Part shown: positions 20,665 through 29,524 of the stretch, piece by piece
Layout: every line of letters begins with the position of its first letter
Numbering within the stretch: the first letter of the stretch is position 1
Assembly: GCA_025964695.1 (NCBI GenBank)
Contig: JAOPYK010000250.1
Coordinates: 1-64,000 of the forward strand
Direction of reading: 5' to 3'
DNA from: Streptosporangiaceae bacterium
GTDB taxonomy: Bacteria; Actinomycetota; Actinomycetes; Streptosporangiales; Streptosporangiaceae
DNA length: 64,000 nt
Made by a program: the position numbers and the translations under genes
Notes under the pieces: generated by a model
Database searches by the model: none
Seen by the model: the letters and a program-made list of their open reading frames with translations, nothing else
Told to the model about the DNA's origin: nothing

Positions 20665-20987
20665 AGTCGGCGAGGCGTTGATGGGACACCTGCCGTCGTG
20701 AGCGGCCATGAGCGATCCGGGGACGGTGCGAGCCCGGAGGCGAGCCCGGCGGTCTGATCACCCGGAGCCGCCGGAAGAACGGTTCCAGGCAGTTCCAGGG
20801 GAACCCAGTAGACCCGGCAGCCGCAGCAGGAACGCACAACGAAGCGGGCCGTGCCACACGCGCACGGTCAAGGAGGGTGGTACCGCGGGGCGCACAGCCT
20901 CGTCCCTCCGGGTCCCCCCAGGGGCGGTGCCGCGAGCCTGGCCGCAGTATCTCCACTGGGTCCGTGCATTCCCGTGGAGGTCCACCC
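20665..20987 (+). promoter_or_regulatory. translational T-box leader (isoleucine) of ileS
   Basis: The T-box motif AGGGTGGTACCGCGG is at 20874-20888. Upstream, a short stem CGGCGG/CCGCCG (20747-20752 with 20768-20773) exposes CTGATCACC with an ATC isoleucine codon at 20757-20759, the proposed specifier in an ultrashort stem I. GGAGGG (20872-20877) can pair with CCCTCC (20904-20909) around the T-box bulge to form the antisequestrator. CTCCAC (20951-20956) pairs with GTGGAG (20974-20979), hiding the ileS ribosome site. The absence of a terminator and this sequestrator indicate translational control, as known for actinobacterial ileS. Confidence 0.88.
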
Positions 20988-23900
20988 GTGAGTGAACAAC
21001 AGGCGCCGCGCACGATGCGCGCGCTGCCCGCCCAGGTCGATCTGCCCGCCGTCGAGCACGACACGCTCCGGCGCTGGCAGGAGGAGAAGATCTTCGAACG
21101 CTCGCTGGAGCGTAACGCGTCCGGTCCCCGCTGGGTCTTCTACGAAGGGCCGCCGACCGCCAACGGCATGCCCGGCGTGCACCACGTCGAGGCCCGTGTC
21201 TTCAAGGACGTCTTCCCCCGGTTCAAGACCATGAAGGGCTACCAGGTCCCCCGTAAGGCCGGCTGGGACTGCCATGGGCTCCCCGTGGAGGTCGCGGTGG
21301 AGAAGGAGCTCGGCCTGTCCGGCAAGCCGCAGATCGAGGAGTACGGCATCGCCGAGTTCAACGCGCGCTGCCGGGAGTCGGTGCTCCGTCACACCGACGC
21401 CTTCGAGGAACTCACGGAGCGGATGGGCTACTGGGTGGACCTCTCCCAGGCCTACCGCACCATGGACCCCTCCTATGTCGAGTCGGTGTGGTGGTCCCTC
21501 AAGGTCATCTGGGACAAGGACCTGCTGTTCTCCGACCACCGGATCACCCCGTACTGCCCGCGCTGCGGCACCGGCCTGTCCGACCACGAGCTGGGCCAGC
21601 CCGGCGGGTACGAGATGGTCAGCAGCCCGTCGGTCTACGTGCGGATGCCCGTGACCTCGGGCCGGTTCGGGGGCACCGACCTGCTGATCTGGACGACCAC
21701 GCCGTGGACGCTGGTCTCCAACACCGCCGTGGCCGTCAACCCCTCAGTGACCTACGTGGTCGCGGAAAAGGAGGGCGAGCGCCCGGTCATCGTGGCGGAA
21801 CCGCTGATGGACGACGCCCTCGGCGAGGGCTGGACGGTCCGCGAGCGGCTGTCCGGCTATGACCTGGAGCGCACCCCGTACTCCCGCCCCTTCGAGCTGG
21901 TGGACATCCCCGGGGCCCACTACGTGGTGCTGGCCGAGTACGTCACCGTCGAGGACGGCACCGGGCTGGTCCACCAGGCCCCCGCCTTCGGCGCCGACGA
22001 CCTGCAGATCTGCAAGCGGTACGGCCTGCCCGTGGTCAATCCGATCGGCCCGGACGGGCGTTTCCTGCCCGGCGTCCCCATGGTCGGCGGGGTCTTCTTC
22101 AAGGACGCCGACGAGGACCTGACCGCCGACCTGCGCTCACGCGGCCTGCTGCTGCGCGGGACCCACTTCGAGCACAGCTACCCGCACTGCTGGCGCTGCC
22201 ACACGGCGCTGCTCTACTACGCGCTCCCCGCGTGGTACATCCGTACCACCAAGATCAAGGATCGGCTGCTGGCCGAGAACGAGAAGACCAGCTGGTTCCC
22301 GGAGACGATCAAGTGGGGCCGCTTCGGGGACTGGCTGCGCAACAACGTCGACTGGTCGCTGTCCCGGTCGCGCTACTGGGGCACCCCGCTGCCGCTGTGG
22401 ATCTGCTCGGCGGACGACTCCCACGTGACGTGCGTCGGATCACTGGCCGAGCTCGGCGAGCTCGCCGGCCAGGACGTCTCGGCGCTCGACCCCCACCGGC
22501 CCTTCGTCGACGACGTGACCTTTCCCTGCCCGACGTGCGGCGGCACCGCCACGCGGGTCCCCGACGTGATCGACGCCTGGTACGACTCCGGTTCCATGCC
22601 GTTCGCCCAGTGGGGCGCCCCACAGCACGACCAGGAGACCTTCGAGCAGGCCTACCCGGCGCAGTTCATCTGCGAGGGGACCGACCAGACCCGAGGCTGG
22701 TTCTACTCGCTGATGGCGGTCGGCACCCTGGTGTTCGACAGGTCGTCGTACGAGAACGTGCTCTGCCTGGGACTCATCCTCGCCGAGGACGGCCGGAAGA
22801 TGAGCAAGCACCTGGGGAACGTGCTGCAGCCGATGCCGCTGATGGAACAGCACGGCGCGGACGCGCTGCGCTGGTTCATGGCCTGCGCGGGATCGCCGTG
22901 GGCGGCCCGCCGGGTCGGCCACGCCGCCCTCGAGGAGATCGTCCGCAAGGTCTTGCTGACCTACTGGAACACCGCCTCGTTCCTGGTGCTGTACGCCAAC
23001 GCGGCCGCCGCGCAGGGCGCCGCCTGGACCCCGGACCGGCTGACCGAGGCCCCGGCACCCGCCGACCGGCCGTTGCTGGACCGCTGGGCGCTGGCCGAGC
23101 TGAACCGCACGGTCGCGGAGGTGGACGCGGCGATGGAGCAGTTCGACACCGCGCAGGCCGGGCGGTTGCTGGCCGAGTTCGTCGACGACCTGTCCAACTG
23201 GTACGTACGCCGGTCCCGGCGGCGGTTCTGGGAGGGACCCGGGTCCGCCGAGGGCGCGGCGGCGTTCGCGACGCTCTATGAGTGCCTGGAGACCCTCACC
23301 CGGCTCATGGCGCCGATCGTGCCGTTCGTCACCGACCACGTCTGGGACGTGATCCGCCCGGCGGGAGCCCCCGAGTCGGTGCATCTCGCCGACTGGCCGC
23401 AGGTCCGGGAGGAGCTGCTGGACGACGAGCTGACGGCCCAGATGGCGCTGGTGCGGCGGCTGGTCGAGCTCGGCCGGGCCGCCCGTGCCTCGAGCGGCGT
23501 GCGCACCCGGCAGCCGCTGGGCCGGGCGCTGGTGGGCGCCCCCGGCTGGGCCACGCTGCCGGCCGCGCTGCGTGCCCAGATCGCCGAGGAGCTCAACGTC
23601 CAGTCCTTCGAGGACCTGTCCTCGATCGGCGGAGACCTGGTGGAGTACGAGGTGAAACCGAACTTCCGGGAACTCGGACGGCGCTACGGCAAGAACACCC
23701 CGAAGGTAGCCGCGCAGGTCACCGCCGCCGACCCGGCCGACCTGGTCCGGGCACTGCGCGACACGGGCTCGGTCACCGTGCAGGCCCCGGAGGTCGGCGC
23801 GGTCGCGCTCGGCCCGGACGACGTGGTCGTCACCGAACGGCCGCGCAGCGGCTGGGCCGTCGAGAGCGCCGCCGGCGAGACCCTGGCGCTGGACCTGGCC

Positions 23901-24188
23901 GTCACCCCGGAGCTGCGTCGCGCCGGGATCGCCCGGGAGGCCGTACGGCTGCTCCAGGACGCCCGCAAGAACAGCGGCCTGGAGGTCACCGACCGCGTCG
24001 AGCTCTGGTGGACGTCAAAGGACCCTGAGGTCACCGAGGCCCTGCGGGAGCACGACGGCTACGTCGCGCTAGAGGTGCTCGGCGCCATCCACCCCGGCGG
24101 CGAGCCACCGGCCGACGTGATCGCCGAGCTGCCCGCCCGGCAGGACGAAGACCTGAGGCTCACCTTCTGGTTGCGGAAATCGTCCTGA
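20988..24188 (+). CDS. ileS: isoleucyl-tRNA synthetase, eukaryotic-like (type 2)
   Basis: IleRS charges tRNA(Ile) and edits valine. The 1066-residue class-I synthetase carries EGPPTANGMPGVHHVEARVF, with HHVE as the HIGH-box equivalent, and KMSKHLGN as the KMSKS box. PRKAGWDCHGLPVE and WDLSLSRSRYWGTPLP-like segments match the eukaryotic-like type 2 enzymes of actinobacteria, a class often insensitive to mupirocin. The editing CP1 domain lies between about residues 190 and 400; an anticodon-binding domain follows the catalytic core. The GTG at 20988 has GTGGAGG seven bases upstream, within the T-box sequestrator. Confidence 0.96.
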   Translation: MSEQQAPRTMRALPAQVDLPAVEHDTLRRWQEEKIFERSLERNASGPRWVFYEGPPTANGMPGVHHVEARVFKDVFPRFKTMKGYQVPRKAGWDCHGLPVEVAVEKELGLSGKPQIEEYGIAEFNARCRESVLRHTDAFEELTERMGYWVDLSQAYRTMDPSYVESVWWSLKVIWDKDLLFSDHRITPYCPRCGTGLSDHELGQPGGYEMVSSPSVYVRMPVTSGRFGGTDLLIWTTTPWTLVSNTAVAVNPSVTYVVAEKEGERPVIVAEPLMDDALGEGWTVRERLSGYDLERTPYSRPFELVDIPGAHYVVLAEYVTVEDGTGLVHQAPAFGADDLQICKRYGLPVVNPIGPDGRFLPGVPMVGGVFFKDADEDLTADLRSRGLLLRGTHFEHSYPHCWRCHTALLYYALPAWYIRTTKIKDRLLAENEKTSWFPETIKWGRFGDWLRNNVDWSLSRSRYWGTPLPLWICSADDSHVTCVGSLAELGELAGQDVSALDPHRPFVDDVTFPCPTCGGTATRVPDVIDAWYDSGSMPFAQWGAPQHDQETFEQAYPAQFICEGTDQTRGWFYSLMAVGTLVFDRSSYENVLCLGLILAEDGRKMSKHLGNVLQPMPLMEQHGADALRWFMACAGSPWAARRVGHAALEEIVRKVLLTYWNTASFLVLYANAAAAQGAAWTPDRLTEAPAPADRPLLDRWALAELNRTVAEVDAAMEQFDTAQAGRLLAEFVDDLSNWYVRRSRRRFWEGPGSAEGAAAFATLYECLETLTRLMAPIVPFVTDHVWDVIRPAGAPESVHLADWPQVREELLDDELTAQMALVRRLVELGRAARASSGVRTRQPLGRALVGAPGWATLPAALRAQIAEELNVQSFEDLSSIGGDLVEYEVKPNFRELGRRYGKNTPKVAAQVTAADPADLVRALRDTGSVTVQAPEVGAVALGPDDVVVTERPRSGWAVESAAGETLALDLAVTPELRRAGIAREAVRLLQDARKNSGLEVTDRVELWWTSKDPEVTEALREHDGYVALEVLGAIHPGGEPPADVIAELPARQDEDLRLTFWLRKSS

Positions 24189-24240: not shown

Positions 24241-24299
24241 GGCGTGTCACGGGGAACAGGGGCGTGGACGCGACACATCGTGTGCGGAATGATGGGCGC

Positions 24300-25037
24300 G
24301 TGGACCTTCCAGAGCAGCAGCCCGCACCGGCCGACCCCTCCCGGTTCCGGGCCTCCGACGCGGATCGCGACCGGGTCGCCGACCAGCTCCGCGAAGCGCT
24401 CGCCGAGGGGCGGCTGAGTCCCGAGGAGCACGCCGAGCGGATCGAGCTGGTCTACTCTGCCAAGACGTACGCGGAGCTGGCACCGGCCCTGGAAGATCTG
24501 CCGGTCACGGTCGCGCCGAGCGCGGCGCCCACTGTCGCGGCCCCGCAGGACCTTCCCGCACCGCCTCATGAGCCGGCCGGTATTGTGGCGATCTTCAGTG
24601 GCGCGGAGCGCAAGGGCCGCTGGCTGGTCGAACCGCACACCAACGTCTTCACCATGTTCGGCGGGGTGGAACTCGACTTCCGCGAGGCGGTGCTCACCCA
24701 GCGCGAGGTGACGATCAATATCACCTGCATCTTCGGCGGCGTCGACATCAAGGTGCCGCCGGGCGTCCGGGTGATCGACTCCGGCATGGCCATTTTCGGC
24801 GGCCGCTCGATCGCGGGCGGCGACCCCGACGATCCGAACGCCCCGGTGATCCGGCTTACCGGTTTCACGCTGTTCGGCGGCGTCGACGTCAAGCGCAGGG
24901 CGCCCAAGGGCGAACAGGGCGACTTCCGGGAGCGCCTGCGCGAGCAGCGCGACCAGATCCGGCAGCGGCGCGACGAGCGCCGTGACCATCTCCGGGAACT
25001 CCGCCAGGCACGCCGCAGGGACCGCCGTGAGCGCTGA
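24300..25037 (+). CDS. DUF1707 plus LiaF-like domain protein
   Basis: This 245-residue protein has an N-terminal DUF1707 domain (residues ~17-68: RASDADRDRVADQLREAL, RLSPEEHAERIELVYSAKTYAEL). After a Pro/Ala linker comes a beta-rich domain like the C-terminal part of LiaF/cell-wall-antibiotic response proteins, with three FGGV-type repeats (TMFGGVELDF, CIFGGVDIKVPPGVRV, TLFGGVDVKR). There are no membrane helices, and it ends in an Arg/Glu-rich coiled coil. A role in envelope stress sensing is only suggested by the LiaF likeness. The GTG at 24300 is the best start. Confidence 0.82.
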   Translation: MDLPEQQPAPADPSRFRASDADRDRVADQLREALAEGRLSPEEHAERIELVYSAKTYAELAPALEDLPVTVAPSAAPTVAAPQDLPAPPHEPAGIVAIFSGAERKGRWLVEPHTNVFTMFGGVELDFREAVLTQREVTINITCIFGGVDIKVPPGVRVIDSGMAIFGGRSIAGGDPDDPNAPVIRLTGFTLFGGVDVKRRAPKGEQGDFRERLREQRDQIRQRRDERRDHLRELRQARRRDRRER

Positions 25038-25129: not shown

Positions 25130-26680
25130 TCAGTCCCCGGTGTGCTCCTTGTCAGGCTGGCACACCAGGCACGGCGTGCAGCCCCGCTCCTTGGCCTCGT
25201 CCCGCGACAGGGACTCCAGGTCCTCGGCCTCGTCACCGATGTCCTCGATCAGCGCGCAGTCCGGGCGGTGGTAGCGCCTGGTGCCGCTGAGGATGCGCAC
25301 CTGAGGGCTGGCGGCGCCGGGCGCGTCGTCCTGGGTCGGCTCGGGATCCGGTTCGTCGGCGGCGTGTCCGTTGTCCGGCTCGCGAGCGCCCTCGGGCTCG
25401 TCCGTCACGATCTCCGGGATGTCGTCTCCGAGCACGTCGGGCGCCGCATCCAGCGGCGTCTCCCATTCCAGGTCCTCGGTGGCCGGGGTCGCCGGGGCCG
25501 GGTCGGCACCGGCCGTGCGGGACGGGACCGGCTTCGCCTCGGCCGCGGTGAATTCGAGCGTCACCGGCGGCGCGTCGGCCTCCGCCGGAAGGTCGAGGGC
25601 GCTGGGAGCGATCGGGGAGGTCGTCCAGACGGAGGACGGGGCGGAGACCTCGTCGTCCTGGCCGGTGCTCTCCGGGGCGACGGCGCCGAGTTCGGCCGTG
25701 ACGGCCTCCTCGGTCCGGGACTCCGGCAGCCGCTCGGGGCGGGTGGCCTCCGGACGCGTCAGCGGCGACTCGGCCCACGACGGGACGCCCAGGTCCCGGT
25801 CGCTCTCCCATCCCGGCGAATCCTCCTCCGGAGGGCTGGTCACCGGCTCGGCGGAAGAGGCGTAGGACGAGGGCGCGGAAAGCGGGCTGCGCGGCGCCGG
25901 GGTACCGGGCGACTCCCACTGGGAGGGGTCGAAGCCGCCGCTTCCCGGCCGGTCGGTCCCGAAGCGGTCCTCCGGACCTGCAGTGGACGGCGTGGACGTC
26001 CGCGATGGGCCGCCGGCCGGGCGGGACGCGGACAGGCCGGCCGCGGCCGACTCCGTCCGCGCGCCCTTCCCCAGCCCGGCGGTCCCGCCGGCCACGCTCC
26101 TGTCCCCGGTGCCCACCTGTGCGGCCGGCTCGCCGCCCGACATCGCCGCGCGCGCCGCGAGTGCGGTGTCGGGCATGCAGGCCGTGCACGGGCTGAAGCC
26201 CTCTTCCAGGGCCTCGGCATAGGTCAGGTCTTCCTTGTCCCGCCCGGTGAGCTGACGGCAGTTCTCCAGGTGATATCTCTTGCGTCCGCGAACGACGAAG
26301 ACCGTGGCGTCCGCGGGCACGTCCAGCGGCTGAGAGGGCAGCGTCACCGTCTCCTCCGCCGGCTCGTCCGGCAGCCGGCCGTCGGCCTCCTTGGCGCCCT
26401 TCTCCTTGGCGCCCTTGGCCTGCCGGGCGGCCTTGCCCGGCTTGCCGCCCTTCGCGGGCTTCCCGGCCCGCGCGGGCGCCGCGGCCCCGGAGCCGAAGAG
26501 CTCCTTACGGCGGAGGTACACCCCGATGGCAAGGCAGAGCGCAGAGACGATGCTGACCGCGATCGAGACGTAGATCAGAGTCAGCCCCTGGACACCCCCC
26601 ACCCCGTCCGCCCCGACCACGATGCCCGCGACGAGCAACGCGATCGCGAGCACGACGAGAATGCCACTCAGGATGATCAC
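25130..26680 (-). CDS. membrane protein with two Ada-like zinc-binding modules
   Basis: The 516-residue protein begins with two membrane helices (IILSGILVVLAIALLVAGIV and LIYVSIAVSIVSALCLAIGVYL). A Lys/Ala/Gly linker leads to a first module, YHLENC...GFSPCTAC (His137, Cys141, Cys165, Cys168). A ~300-residue Pro/Ser/Glu-rich disordered linker follows, and then a second module, YHRPDC...CTPCLVC (His471, Cys475, Cys504, Cys507). Both modules follow the YHxxxC...EAxxxGxxPCxxC pattern of Ada-type zinc domains. The GTG at 26680 follows GGGAGAGACCC. It lies just downstream of divIVA on the same strand. Function is unknown; metal binding is inferred. Confidence 0.75.
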   Translation of the reverse strand: MIILSGILVVLAIALLVAGIVVGADGVGGVQGLTLIYVSIAVSIVSALCLAIGVYLRRKELFGSGAAAPARAGKPAKGGKPGKAARQAKGAKEKGAKEADGRLPDEPAEETVTLPSQPLDVPADATVFVVRGRKRYHLENCRQLTGRDKEDLTYAEALEEGFSPCTACMPDTALAARAAMSGGEPAAQVGTGDRSVAGGTAGLGKGARTESAAAGLSASRPAGGPSRTSTPSTAGPEDRFGTDRPGSGGFDPSQWESPGTPAPRSPLSAPSSYASSAEPVTSPPEEDSPGWESDRDLGVPSWAESPLTRPEATRPERLPESRTEEAVTAELGAVAPESTGQDDEVSAPSSVWTTSPIAPSALDLPAEADAPPVTLEFTAAEAKPVPSRTAGADPAPATPATEDLEWETPLDAAPDVLGDDIPEIVTDEPEGAREPDNGHAADEPDPEPTQDDAPGAASPQVRILSGTRRYHRPDCALIEDIGDEAEDLESLSRDEAKERGCTPCLVCQPDKEHTGD

Positions 26681-26866: not shown

Positions 26867-27766
26867 TCAGCGCCTCTCGTGCGGCTGGTTGTCGGCCGTG
26901 TGGAAGGCTCCGGTGCCGGAGTGCTGAGCGTGCTGGGCATGCTGAGCGGGCTCGGCCGGCGGCGGGAACGGGGTCGGGCCCGTCGTCGTCGGAGCGGGGC
27001 TCGGCTGGCCGTTGCGCGCCTCGGCGTGCACCAGCGGGGCCTGCACGGCAGGCTGCGGGCCGGTCGTGGACCCGCCGCCCTTGGGGAACGACGCGGCCTC
27101 GGCGGTGCCGGCCTCGAGCTCACGGAGCTGACCCTCGAGGTAGGCCTTCAGCCGGGTGCGGTACTCACGCTCGAACGCACGCAGGTTGTCGACGTCGCGC
27201 TCAAGGTCCTCACGCTGCTGGACGAGCGAGCCCATGACCTGACGATGCCGGTCCTGGGCGTCACGGTCCAGCTGCTCGGCCCGTGCCCGGGCCTCGCTCA
27301 CGATCTGGTCGGCCTGGCGGCGGGCCTTGCCGACGATCTCCTCCGCCTCGCGGCGGGCCCGGCCGAGCGTCTCGTCGGCCTCCCGGCGGGCATCGGCGAT
27401 CGCCTGGTCGGCGGTCTGCTGCGCCAGCGCGAGCACGCGGGCGGCCGTGTCCATGTTGTCCTCGCCGCTGTGCGACGAACCGAAGCTCATGACGGGCTCG
27501 GGTTCGGGCTTGGGCTCCGGCCGCATGGGCTCGGGCACCGGCGCGAGGTCGGGCTTGGGTTCGACGATCGGCGCGGCCATCGCGGGCACCTTGCCCCGCA
27601 GGCACTCGGCGAGCTTGGCCCGCAGCTCCTCGTTCTCCTGGATGAGTCGGTCCAGCTCAGCCTCGACCTCGTCGAGGAAGGCATCGACCTCCTCTTCGTC
27701 GTACCCCGGCCTCAACCGGGTCGTACTGAACTGCTTGTTCCGGACATCCGCGGGTGTCAGCGGCAT
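26867..27766 (-). CDS. divIVA: DivIVA/Wag31 polar growth protein
   Basis: DivIVA (Wag31) binds curved membrane at cell poles and septa and organises polar peptidoglycan synthesis in actinobacteria, where it is usually essential. The 299-residue protein has the N-terminal membrane-binding domain PLTPADVRNKQFSTTRLRPG with YDEEEVDAFLDEVEAEL, then a Pro/Glu linker of about 50 residues, then a long Ala/Arg/Glu-rich coiled coil (about residues 105-215). The C-terminal tail is Pro-rich with AQHAQHAQH. GGAG lies before the ATG at 27766. It closes the dcw-linked block yggS-sepF-yggT-divIVA. Confidence 0.94.
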   Translation of the reverse strand: MPLTPADVRNKQFSTTRLRPGYDEEEVDAFLDEVEAELDRLIQENEELRAKLAECLRGKVPAMAAPIVEPKPDLAPVPEPMRPEPKPEPEPVMSFGSSHSGEDNMDTAARVLALAQQTADQAIADARREADETLGRARREAEEIVGKARRQADQIVSEARARAEQLDRDAQDRHRQVMGSLVQQREDLERDVDNLRAFEREYRTRLKAYLEGQLRELEAGTAEAASFPKGGGSTTGPQPAVQAPLVHAEARNGQPSPAPTTTGPTPFPPPAEPAQHAQHAQHSGTGAFHTADNQPHERR

Positions 27767-27849: not shown

Positions 27850-28137
27850 TCACCCTCCCACAATCATGATCATGACCCAGACCACAAGGAAAAGCACCGT
27901 GAAGCTGAGATCCAACGCCACACCACCCAGACGCAGGTCCGGGATGAAGCGCTTGAGGAGCTTCAGTGGCGGGTCGGTGACGGTGTACGTGGCCTCGGCC
28001 AGCACGAGTACCACCCCTGTCGGACGCCATGACCGTGCGAATCGCTGGACGTACTCCAGGATCAGCCTGCCGATCAGGAACAGCAGGAAGAGGTACAGCA
28101 GTACGATCAGCACGGTTCTAACGATTGTCACGGACAC
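27850..28137 (-). CDS. YggT family membrane protein
   Basis: This 95-residue protein has two membrane helices (VLIVLLYLFLLFLIGRLILEYV and LSFTVLFLVVWVMIMIVGG) separated by the conserved TDPPLKLLKRFIPDLRLGGVALD loop, which is the YggT signature. It starts with GTG at 28137, 15 bp after sepF. YggT proteins are encoded beside sepF and divIVA in most Gram-positive bacteria; a role in division or osmotic tolerance has been suggested for some, but is not settled. Confidence 0.9.
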   Translation of the reverse strand: MSVTIVRTVLIVLLYLFLLFLIGRLILEYVQRFARSWRPTGVVLVLAEATYTVTDPPLKLLKRFIPDLRLGGVALDLSFTVLFLVVWVMIMIVGG

Positions 28138-28152
28138 TCTCGCATGTGGCTG

Positions 28153-28680
28153 TCAGCTTTGGTTGAAGAATCCTCGTTCTGCCATCCGGGCCTTGTCTTC
28201 GGCGGTTACCTCGACGTTGACCGGGGACAGCAGGAACACCTTGTTCGTAACACGTTCGATGCTTCCATGCAGGCCGAACACGAGACCCGCCGCGAAATCG
28301 ACCAGACGCTTGGCGTCGCTGTCGACCATCTCGGTCAGATTCATGATCACTGGAGTGCCTTCACGGAAGTGTTCCCCGATGGTCCTCGCCTCGTTGTACG
28401 TTCTCGGGTGAAGTGTAGTGATGCGCGCAAGGTCGGAGGCGGCCGCGTCGTAGACCACGGTCGAGGAGCGGCGCTCGGCGGCCGGCGGCGACTGCTCGCG
28501 ATCCCGGTCCGCCAGCTCCTGGATCCGGGCGGGCTGCTGCCCGGCCGGCTCATCCTCGGGACGGCGCCGATCGGTGGTGGCGTCGTCGTCGTAGACGTCG
28601 TAATCGTCGTAGTCGTCGTGGTAGCGGTCGTCCTCAACGAGGCCGAGGTAGACCGCCATCTTGCGCATTGCGCTGGCCAT
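28153..28680 (-). CDS. sepF: cell division protein SepF
   Basis: SepF links FtsZ filaments to the membrane and is the essential membrane anchor of the Z-ring in actinobacteria, which lack FtsA. The 175-residue protein has the N-terminal amphipathic membrane-binding helix ([17 protein letters not shown]), an acidic Tyr/Asp-rich linker ([12 protein letters not shown]), and the C-terminal SepF core: [27 protein letters not shown] and [18 protein letters not shown]. The ATG at 28680 has GGAGG upstream; the longer frame is rejected. Confidence 0.95.
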
Positions 28681-28777
28681 GTGCCCTCCGACGTCCTCTG
28701 TTGGCGTGCTGGTGGACAGTCGCTGTCCGACTGAAGGTCCGAGGACCCGTGAACCCACAGTGCCCCCGCTGCGGACA

Positions 28778-29524
28778 TTACCTGACGATCGCTTGTCTGC
28801 CCCCGAGCAACGCCGTACCGACACGCACGTGTGTCGCGCCGGAGGCGATCGCCTGTTCCAGATCCCCGCTCATTCCCGCGGAGATGATCGTGGCGCCGGG
28901 ATGGGCGGCCCGCACGGCGGCCGCCATCTCGGCCAGCCGCGCGAAGCCCGGCGCGGGGTCGGCGCCGAGCGGGGCGACCGCCATGACGCCGCCGAGTTCC
29001 AGCCCTTCGGCGCCGGCGACGGCCTCGGCGAGGCCCGGCACCTCCGGGAAGAGCGCCCCGCCGCGCCAGCCCCGCTCGCTGGCGACGTCGTCGGCCGGAC
29101 CGCCGGAGGGCTCGCCGGGCGGGACGTCGAGCGAGACCTGGATCAGGCACCGCAGCGTGCGGTCCGCCCGCACGGCCGCGGCGGACAGCGCGGTGATCAG
29201 CCTGGAGCGATCCACCGAGTGCACCACGTCGGCGTAGGCGACCACCGAACGGACCTTGTTGGTCTGCAGCCGTCCGACGAAATGCCAGGTCAGCGGGAGG
29301 TCCGAGGACTCGGCCACCTTGGGGGCCGCCTCCTGGTCCCGGTTCTCGGCGATGTCGGTCACACCCAGCTCGGCCAGCAGCCGGATATCGGAGGCGGGGA
29401 AGGTCTTGGTGACCGCGATCAGCGTGATCTCGTTCACGTCCCGTCCGGCTGCCAGGCACGCGGCGCCCACCCGGCGGCGTACCTCCGCCAGGCCGGCGGC
29501 CAGTTCGTCCTTACGCGCGCTCAT
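28778..29524 (-). CDS. yggS: YggS family pyridoxal-phosphate homeostasis protein
   Basis: This 248-residue TIM-barrel protein binds pyridoxal phosphate and helps to balance the B6 pool; it has no known catalytic reaction. The PLP lysine is in [13 protein letters not shown], and the family signatures [10 protein letters not shown] (usually GENrvQE), [11 protein letters not shown], and [27 protein letters not shown] are present. It belongs to the conserved block ftsZ-pgeF-yggS-sepF, about 110 bp after pgeF. Confidence 0.93.

Follow-up and report, generated by a model that had tools for sequence, protein, structure and literature searches.

A membrane-hairpin protein with two predicted Ada-like zinc modules encoded beside divIVA, a candidate adaptor at DivIVA-marked sites

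The window, that is, the whole stretch of DNA that was analysed, is 64 kb (64,000 nucleotides) long and contains a division-gene locus in which one gene of unassigned role follows divIVA (Table 1). The frame of this gene was uninterrupted over 516 aa in the ORF translation and starts with a GTG at 26680, which was picked because homologues open at equivalent MI..S(G/A) residues in the alignment. The translation agreed with a first-pass annotation of the same DNA in its coordinates, the two N-terminal helices and a pair of motifs about 330 residues apart. These motifs are YHLENC...PCTAC in module 1 and YHRPDC...PCLVC in module 2, with a His-to-His spacing of 334 residues, and the C-terminus lies 9 residues past the end of the module 2 motif. 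AlphaFold2 modelled the hydrophobic helices at residues 2-25 and 32-62, and the hairpin residues M1, I2, S5, A12, L16, G19, S39 and R58 were invariant in the homologue alignment. The net charge was -2 for module 1, -35 for the linker, and -5 for module 2. The linker, about 285 residues long in the window protein, ranged from 34 to 583 aa across the homologues with both modules.

Table 1. Features of the divIVA locus and layout of the window protein.
Feature	Coordinates	Strand	Basis
ileS, convergent with the window gene; true start probably further in	20877..24188	+	ORF, synteny
Window gene, encoding 516 aa: a membrane hairpin plus two Ada-like HCCC modules	25130..26680	-	translation; stop codon 25130-25132
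Module 2, residues 458-510; predicted zinc ligands H471, C475, C504, C507	25151..25309	-	alignment, model
Acidic Pro/Ala/Ser-rich linker, residues 173-457, presumed disordered	25310..26164	-	composition, charge
Module 1, residues 124-172; predicted zinc ligands H137, C141, C165, C168	26165..26311	-	alignment, model
Basic juxtamembrane stretch, residues 63-123, net about +5	26312..26494	-	charge count
Two-helix membrane hairpin, residues 1-62	26495..26680	-	alignment, model, hairpin HMM
divIVA, directly upstream of the window gene	26867..27766	-	ORF; orthologues likewise placed in all loci reaching divIVA
yggT / ylmG (sepG)	27850..28137	-	ORF, synteny
sepF	28153..28824	-	ORF, synteny

A gap of 186 bp separates divIVA from the window gene in the 64-kb window, and a search of this interval revealed no terminator-like site. 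The gene lay directly downstream of divIVA on the same strand in all of the fetched homologous loci that reach divIVA (29/29), the gap was below 200 bp in 34 of 35 cases (median, 52), and ileS usually converged on the gene from the opposite side. The constant linkage to divIVA that had been suggested for a genome-context survey was therefore confirmed, and it reaches further than the first guess. In other classes of the phylum, module-bearing relatives were found at the same sepF-sepG-divIVA-X-ileS position and consisted of the hairpin, a charged or Lys/Ala-rich linker, and one C-terminal module. Their flanks contained divIVA in L134, L135, L139, and L140 and sepF, yggT, and ileS in L132, and ileS was the only marker gene visible beside the module-bearing relatives L133 and L142. 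The interval between divIVA and ileS lacks such a gene in loci of the Streptomyces type, an arrangement described previously (PMC5943314), indicating that the gene is not universally required. Elsewhere in the same genome, another ORF (C22:24623-24844, -) weakly matched the N-terminal part of DivIVA (E 5.8e-10). In addition, a gene at 24264-25037 (+), which we take to be of the DUF1707 type, lies between ileS and the window gene, convergent with the latter, and was seen in nearer relatives only.

Homologues were present in 31 of the 60 genomes searched. The H, C, C, and C ligands were unvaried in 32/32 module-1 and 32/32 module-2 aligned sequences, an invariance that is partly built in because the aligned modules were gathered by a motif search requiring the ligands. 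In a counter-check on motif-less relatives, the module was either wholly absent or, in L076, reduced to a ligand-free remnant, and the ligand conservation that the earlier reading had made its test among orthologues thus held. Only module 2 was retained in L054, L055, and L056, and only module 1 in L043 and L047. Not one module motif arose when the residues of the protein were shuffled 20,000 times, and a profile search of its own genome returned these two modules as the only significant ones. Each HCCC site would hold a structural zinc. In a module tree (47 columns), which was poorly resolved, modules 1 and 2 of the window family fell into separate groups, which argues against a recent duplication as their source.

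Both modules were modelled by AlphaFold2 with the family alignment, and the pLDDT was about 95-97 for module 1 and mostly 84-91 for module 2. In the Foldseek search, E. coli N-Ada ranked first among 350,542 PDB chains for module 2 (probability 0.98, E 0.17, TM 0.59); the model of the hairpin plus module 1 had no significant structural match, and the fold match of module 1 comes from a second look with VIA. In VIA comparisons with N-Ada, module 1 gave Z 5.0 over 48 residues (rmsd 2.1, 33% identity) and module 2 gave Z 5.2 over 49 residues (rmsd 2.3), scores that are modest, as expected at 50 residues, and that show a fold match, not kinship. Ada was also the top match for the sequence profiles of both modules (E 0.02 and 0.2). 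The Ada-like structure anticipated by the first-pass annotation was thus recovered in both modules, whereas the kinship with Ada repair proteins that it implied was not: His137 aligns with Ada Cys38, a His occupies this position in 64/64 aligned modules, and PF02805 (Ada N-terminal) scored 16.2 bits, below its curated cut-off of 23. Cys38 is the residue of Ada that accepts the methyl group (PMC10814553), and its replacement by His makes Ada-type repair very unlikely, so that this role was dropped. A nuclease role was dropped as well, since Pfam and NCBIfam scans revealed no such domain in the protein; the same scans found neither an AraC-type DNA-binding nor an O6-alkylguanine transferase domain. 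Both modules therefore model as the Ada N-terminal fold without Ada chemistry. The closest Pfam model was PF19746 (DUF6233), which matched at E up to 0.1 in 31/32 module-1 and 15/32 module-2 sequences.

The hairpin was followed separately from the modules. A hairpin HMM run against 3,618 ORFs matched 22 ORFs at E up to 0.01, and all of those with readable flanks sit at the divIVA/ileS locus (L080 stops at a contig edge). The window ORF, which was among the source sequences of the HMM, matched at E 1.8e-18, and in L142 the matching ORF was the one just ahead of the module ORF, in the same frame. In many relatives, the hairpin was retained and the tail was acidic, Lys/Ala-rich, or nearly absent; for the most divergent ones (L115, L117, L098, and L163-L174), the HMM match is weak and position carries the argument. 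The hairpin, kept at divIVA while the tails vary, is thus the constant feature, with the zinc heads as a lineage-dependent tail. In L077-L080 and L082-L085, which lie near divIVA or ileS where readable, the hairpin was followed by a Lys/Ala-rich, histone-H1-like tail with no zinc module. The acidic-tailed, module-less divIVA neighbours (L164-L174 and L098) carry the motif TDGLGKASVP after the hairpin, and a second, SFGAFVQRLQ-like motif recurs in L164, L167, and L169; both segments are possible binding motifs. GLGK (residue 202) was rejected as a family-wide motif, since only the window protein, L031, and L042 have it alongside the module-less relatives.

Two-TM proteins with one Ada-like module are also widespread in Actinomycetota at places unlinked to divIVA. 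They belong to a separate family of about 150-220 aa with a single C-terminal module (L062, L063, L087, L088, and L090-L094; further members L136-L138, L141, L143, L145, L146, and L160). As in the window protein, a hairpin precedes an HCCC module in these proteins (e.g., L136, L138, and L160), but the unlinked proteins have no match to the divIVA-linked HMM, no nearby divIVA or ileS, and no R133-type Arg (0/17). The hairpin HMM, run against the 3,618 ORFs, picked up no two-TM module protein of the unlinked kind. The earlier view that a paired, membrane-tethered form is unusual consequently stands for the pairing on a long arm and fails for the tethering, as single-module two-TM proteins are common. 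Six proteins of SNase-like or SLH type (L144, L152, L154, L155, L156, and L158) have an N-terminal hydrophobic segment and a C-terminal HCCC module. A module restricted to divIVA-linked proteins was considered and rejected, given the module's presence on unlinked two-TM, SNase-like, and SLH proteins. Its occurrence on SNase-like and SLH-type proteins indicates that it is not confined to cytoplasmic DNA proteins, and its occurrence on secreted-looking proteins that it is not a dedicated DNA-binding domain. The conserved divIVA-linked family employs an already known zinc fold in an arrangement that is new; in the window protein, only the pairing is unusual.

Module 1 carries an Arg cluster (R133, R135, R142, and R147). 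R133, R135, and R142 were each found in 32/32 module-1 sequences, and K or R occupied the corresponding sites in 5/7, 7/7, and 7/7 of the divIVA-linked single modules, respectively. In the unlinked modules, the R133 site was never so occupied (0/17), and K or R was found at the R142 position in 10/17. Module 2 of the window's clade is acidic and had no R133 or R142 equivalents (0/28), which makes DNA binding doubtful for this module. The fixed Arg cluster, together with the H1-like Lys/Ala tails of orthologues, points to an anionic partner, and module 1 most likely contacts such a partner, plausibly nucleoid DNA. The net-acidic modules and linker of the window protein count against DNA binding.

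DivIVA marks growing cell tips. We tentatively propose, with confidence just short of even, that the window protein is a membrane adaptor that would be made with DivIVA and would probably act at DivIVA-marked sites, with its heads binding partners. Such a site would be the cell pole, the growth tip, or the septum. The basic residues after helix 2 predict that the tail lies in the cytoplasm. The hairpin, which is retained when the heads are lost, would be the core and would work with the DivIVA/SepG/SepF membrane machinery, and the heads would serve as binding modules on a flexible arm. With module 1 on an anionic partner and module 2 on something else, two partners could be bridged near the polar membrane. 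Operon neighbourhood need not equal physical interaction. SepG, the product of a gene neighbouring divIVA, affects nucleoid shape (PMC4852450); Rv3852, a membrane-anchored nucleoid-associated protein with KAAK/PAAK repeats, binds Wag31 (PMC8233713); and GlpR, which has charged disordered arms, links the divisome and Wag31 (PMC10522489). These precedents make a DivIVA-associated membrane adaptor credible, and the pole or nucleoid link raised in the first-pass annotation seems plausible for the window protein. A broader idea is that the protein is a widespread actinobacterial component of DivIVA-dependent polarity or division, whose Ada-like zinc heads on their long arm would hold the chromosome, or some other anionic partner, at the polar membrane; this is rather unlikely as it stands.

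The acidic modules and linker would also suit a pure protein adaptor, a GlpR-like divisome/elongasome linker in which DivIVA, SepF, SepG, FtsZ, or cell-wall enzymes would be the partners of both hairpin and heads and nucleic acid would play no part. This deserves serious consideration, although we would not expect it to be correct: GlpR offers a precedent with oppositely charged disordered regions (PMC10522489) and the hairpin survives loss of the heads, but the Arg cluster and the Lys/Ala-rich, H1-like tails of orthologues suggest an anionic ligand, even though an acidic protein would fit this description too. A metal or redox sensor, in which the HCCC thiolates would release zinc on oxidation and alter the behaviour of the pole machinery, is improbable. 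Redox activity is possible for the zinc-thiolate sites of other treble-clef proteins (PMC4999995), and the ligands here are invariant; structural zinc, however, accounts equally well for the invariance, many relatives keep the gene but have lost the modules, and nothing at the locus indicates a stress response. It is hardly conceivable that the protein is a DNA-repair or nuclease-associated Ada relative, since the Ada-like fold and the presence of the same module type on SNase-like proteins are outweighed by the His at the methyl-acceptor position, the absence of a nuclease or methyltransferase domain, and the division genes as neighbours.

For the preferred reading, a membrane adaptor at DivIVA-marked sites, the wider meaning lies in the family. 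In actinobacteria, the means by which the chromosome and the division apparatus are joined to the DivIVA-marked pole are understood only in part. A family beside divIVA in several classes, in which a constant hairpin carries zinc heads, histone-like repeats, or acidic arms as exchangeable tails, is a concrete new candidate. The literature searched held nothing on MSMEG_4216, on DUF6233 or a function for it, or on divIVA with zinc and Actinomadura, and no description of the divIVA-linked hairpin family was found there. Its place beside divIVA in several classes suggests that the machinery of the cell pole or of division may include this family as a so far undescribed component. Its absence from Streptomyces-type loci and its seeming reduction to an anchor in mycobacteria-like genomes may explain why it has escaped notice.

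Among known systems, the Ada N-terminal zinc domain (N-Ada; PDB 1u8b and 1adn; PF02805) shares its fold and four-ligand spacing with the modules, whereas the window protein has His for Cys38, a membrane hairpin, two copies of the module, and no AraC-type or methyltransferase domain; the Ada zinc fold would here be employed without its catalytic cysteine. DUF6233 is the closest Pfam model, yet the window protein scores under its cut-off (25.3 bits against 27.6; E 1.7e-5). L115 and L117, which we take to be mycobacteria-like, have at the same position a two-helix protein of the Rv2144c type, with a weak hairpin match (E 0.021), a short acidic tail, and no zinc module; Rv2144c adjoins wag31 (Rv2145c) in mycobacteria, and the likeness to it would be one of position. 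In the literature searched, Rv2144c came up once, in an export screen that lists it as an unknown TM protein (PMC5405230). Rv3852 is alike in its membrane anchor and DivIVA link, and its Lys/Ala-rich repeats resemble several orthologues of the window protein; KAAK/PAAK repeats occur in some orthologues only and not in the window protein itself, whose linker is acidic (net -35), and Rv3852 has a single C-terminal TM and no zinc module. GlpR, the Glp receptor, belongs to the same machinery and is likewise a membrane protein, with disordered cytoplasmic arms that are long and charged, but it has three TM helices, no zinc modules, and another genomic place, whereas the model and sequence of the window protein indicate two helices.
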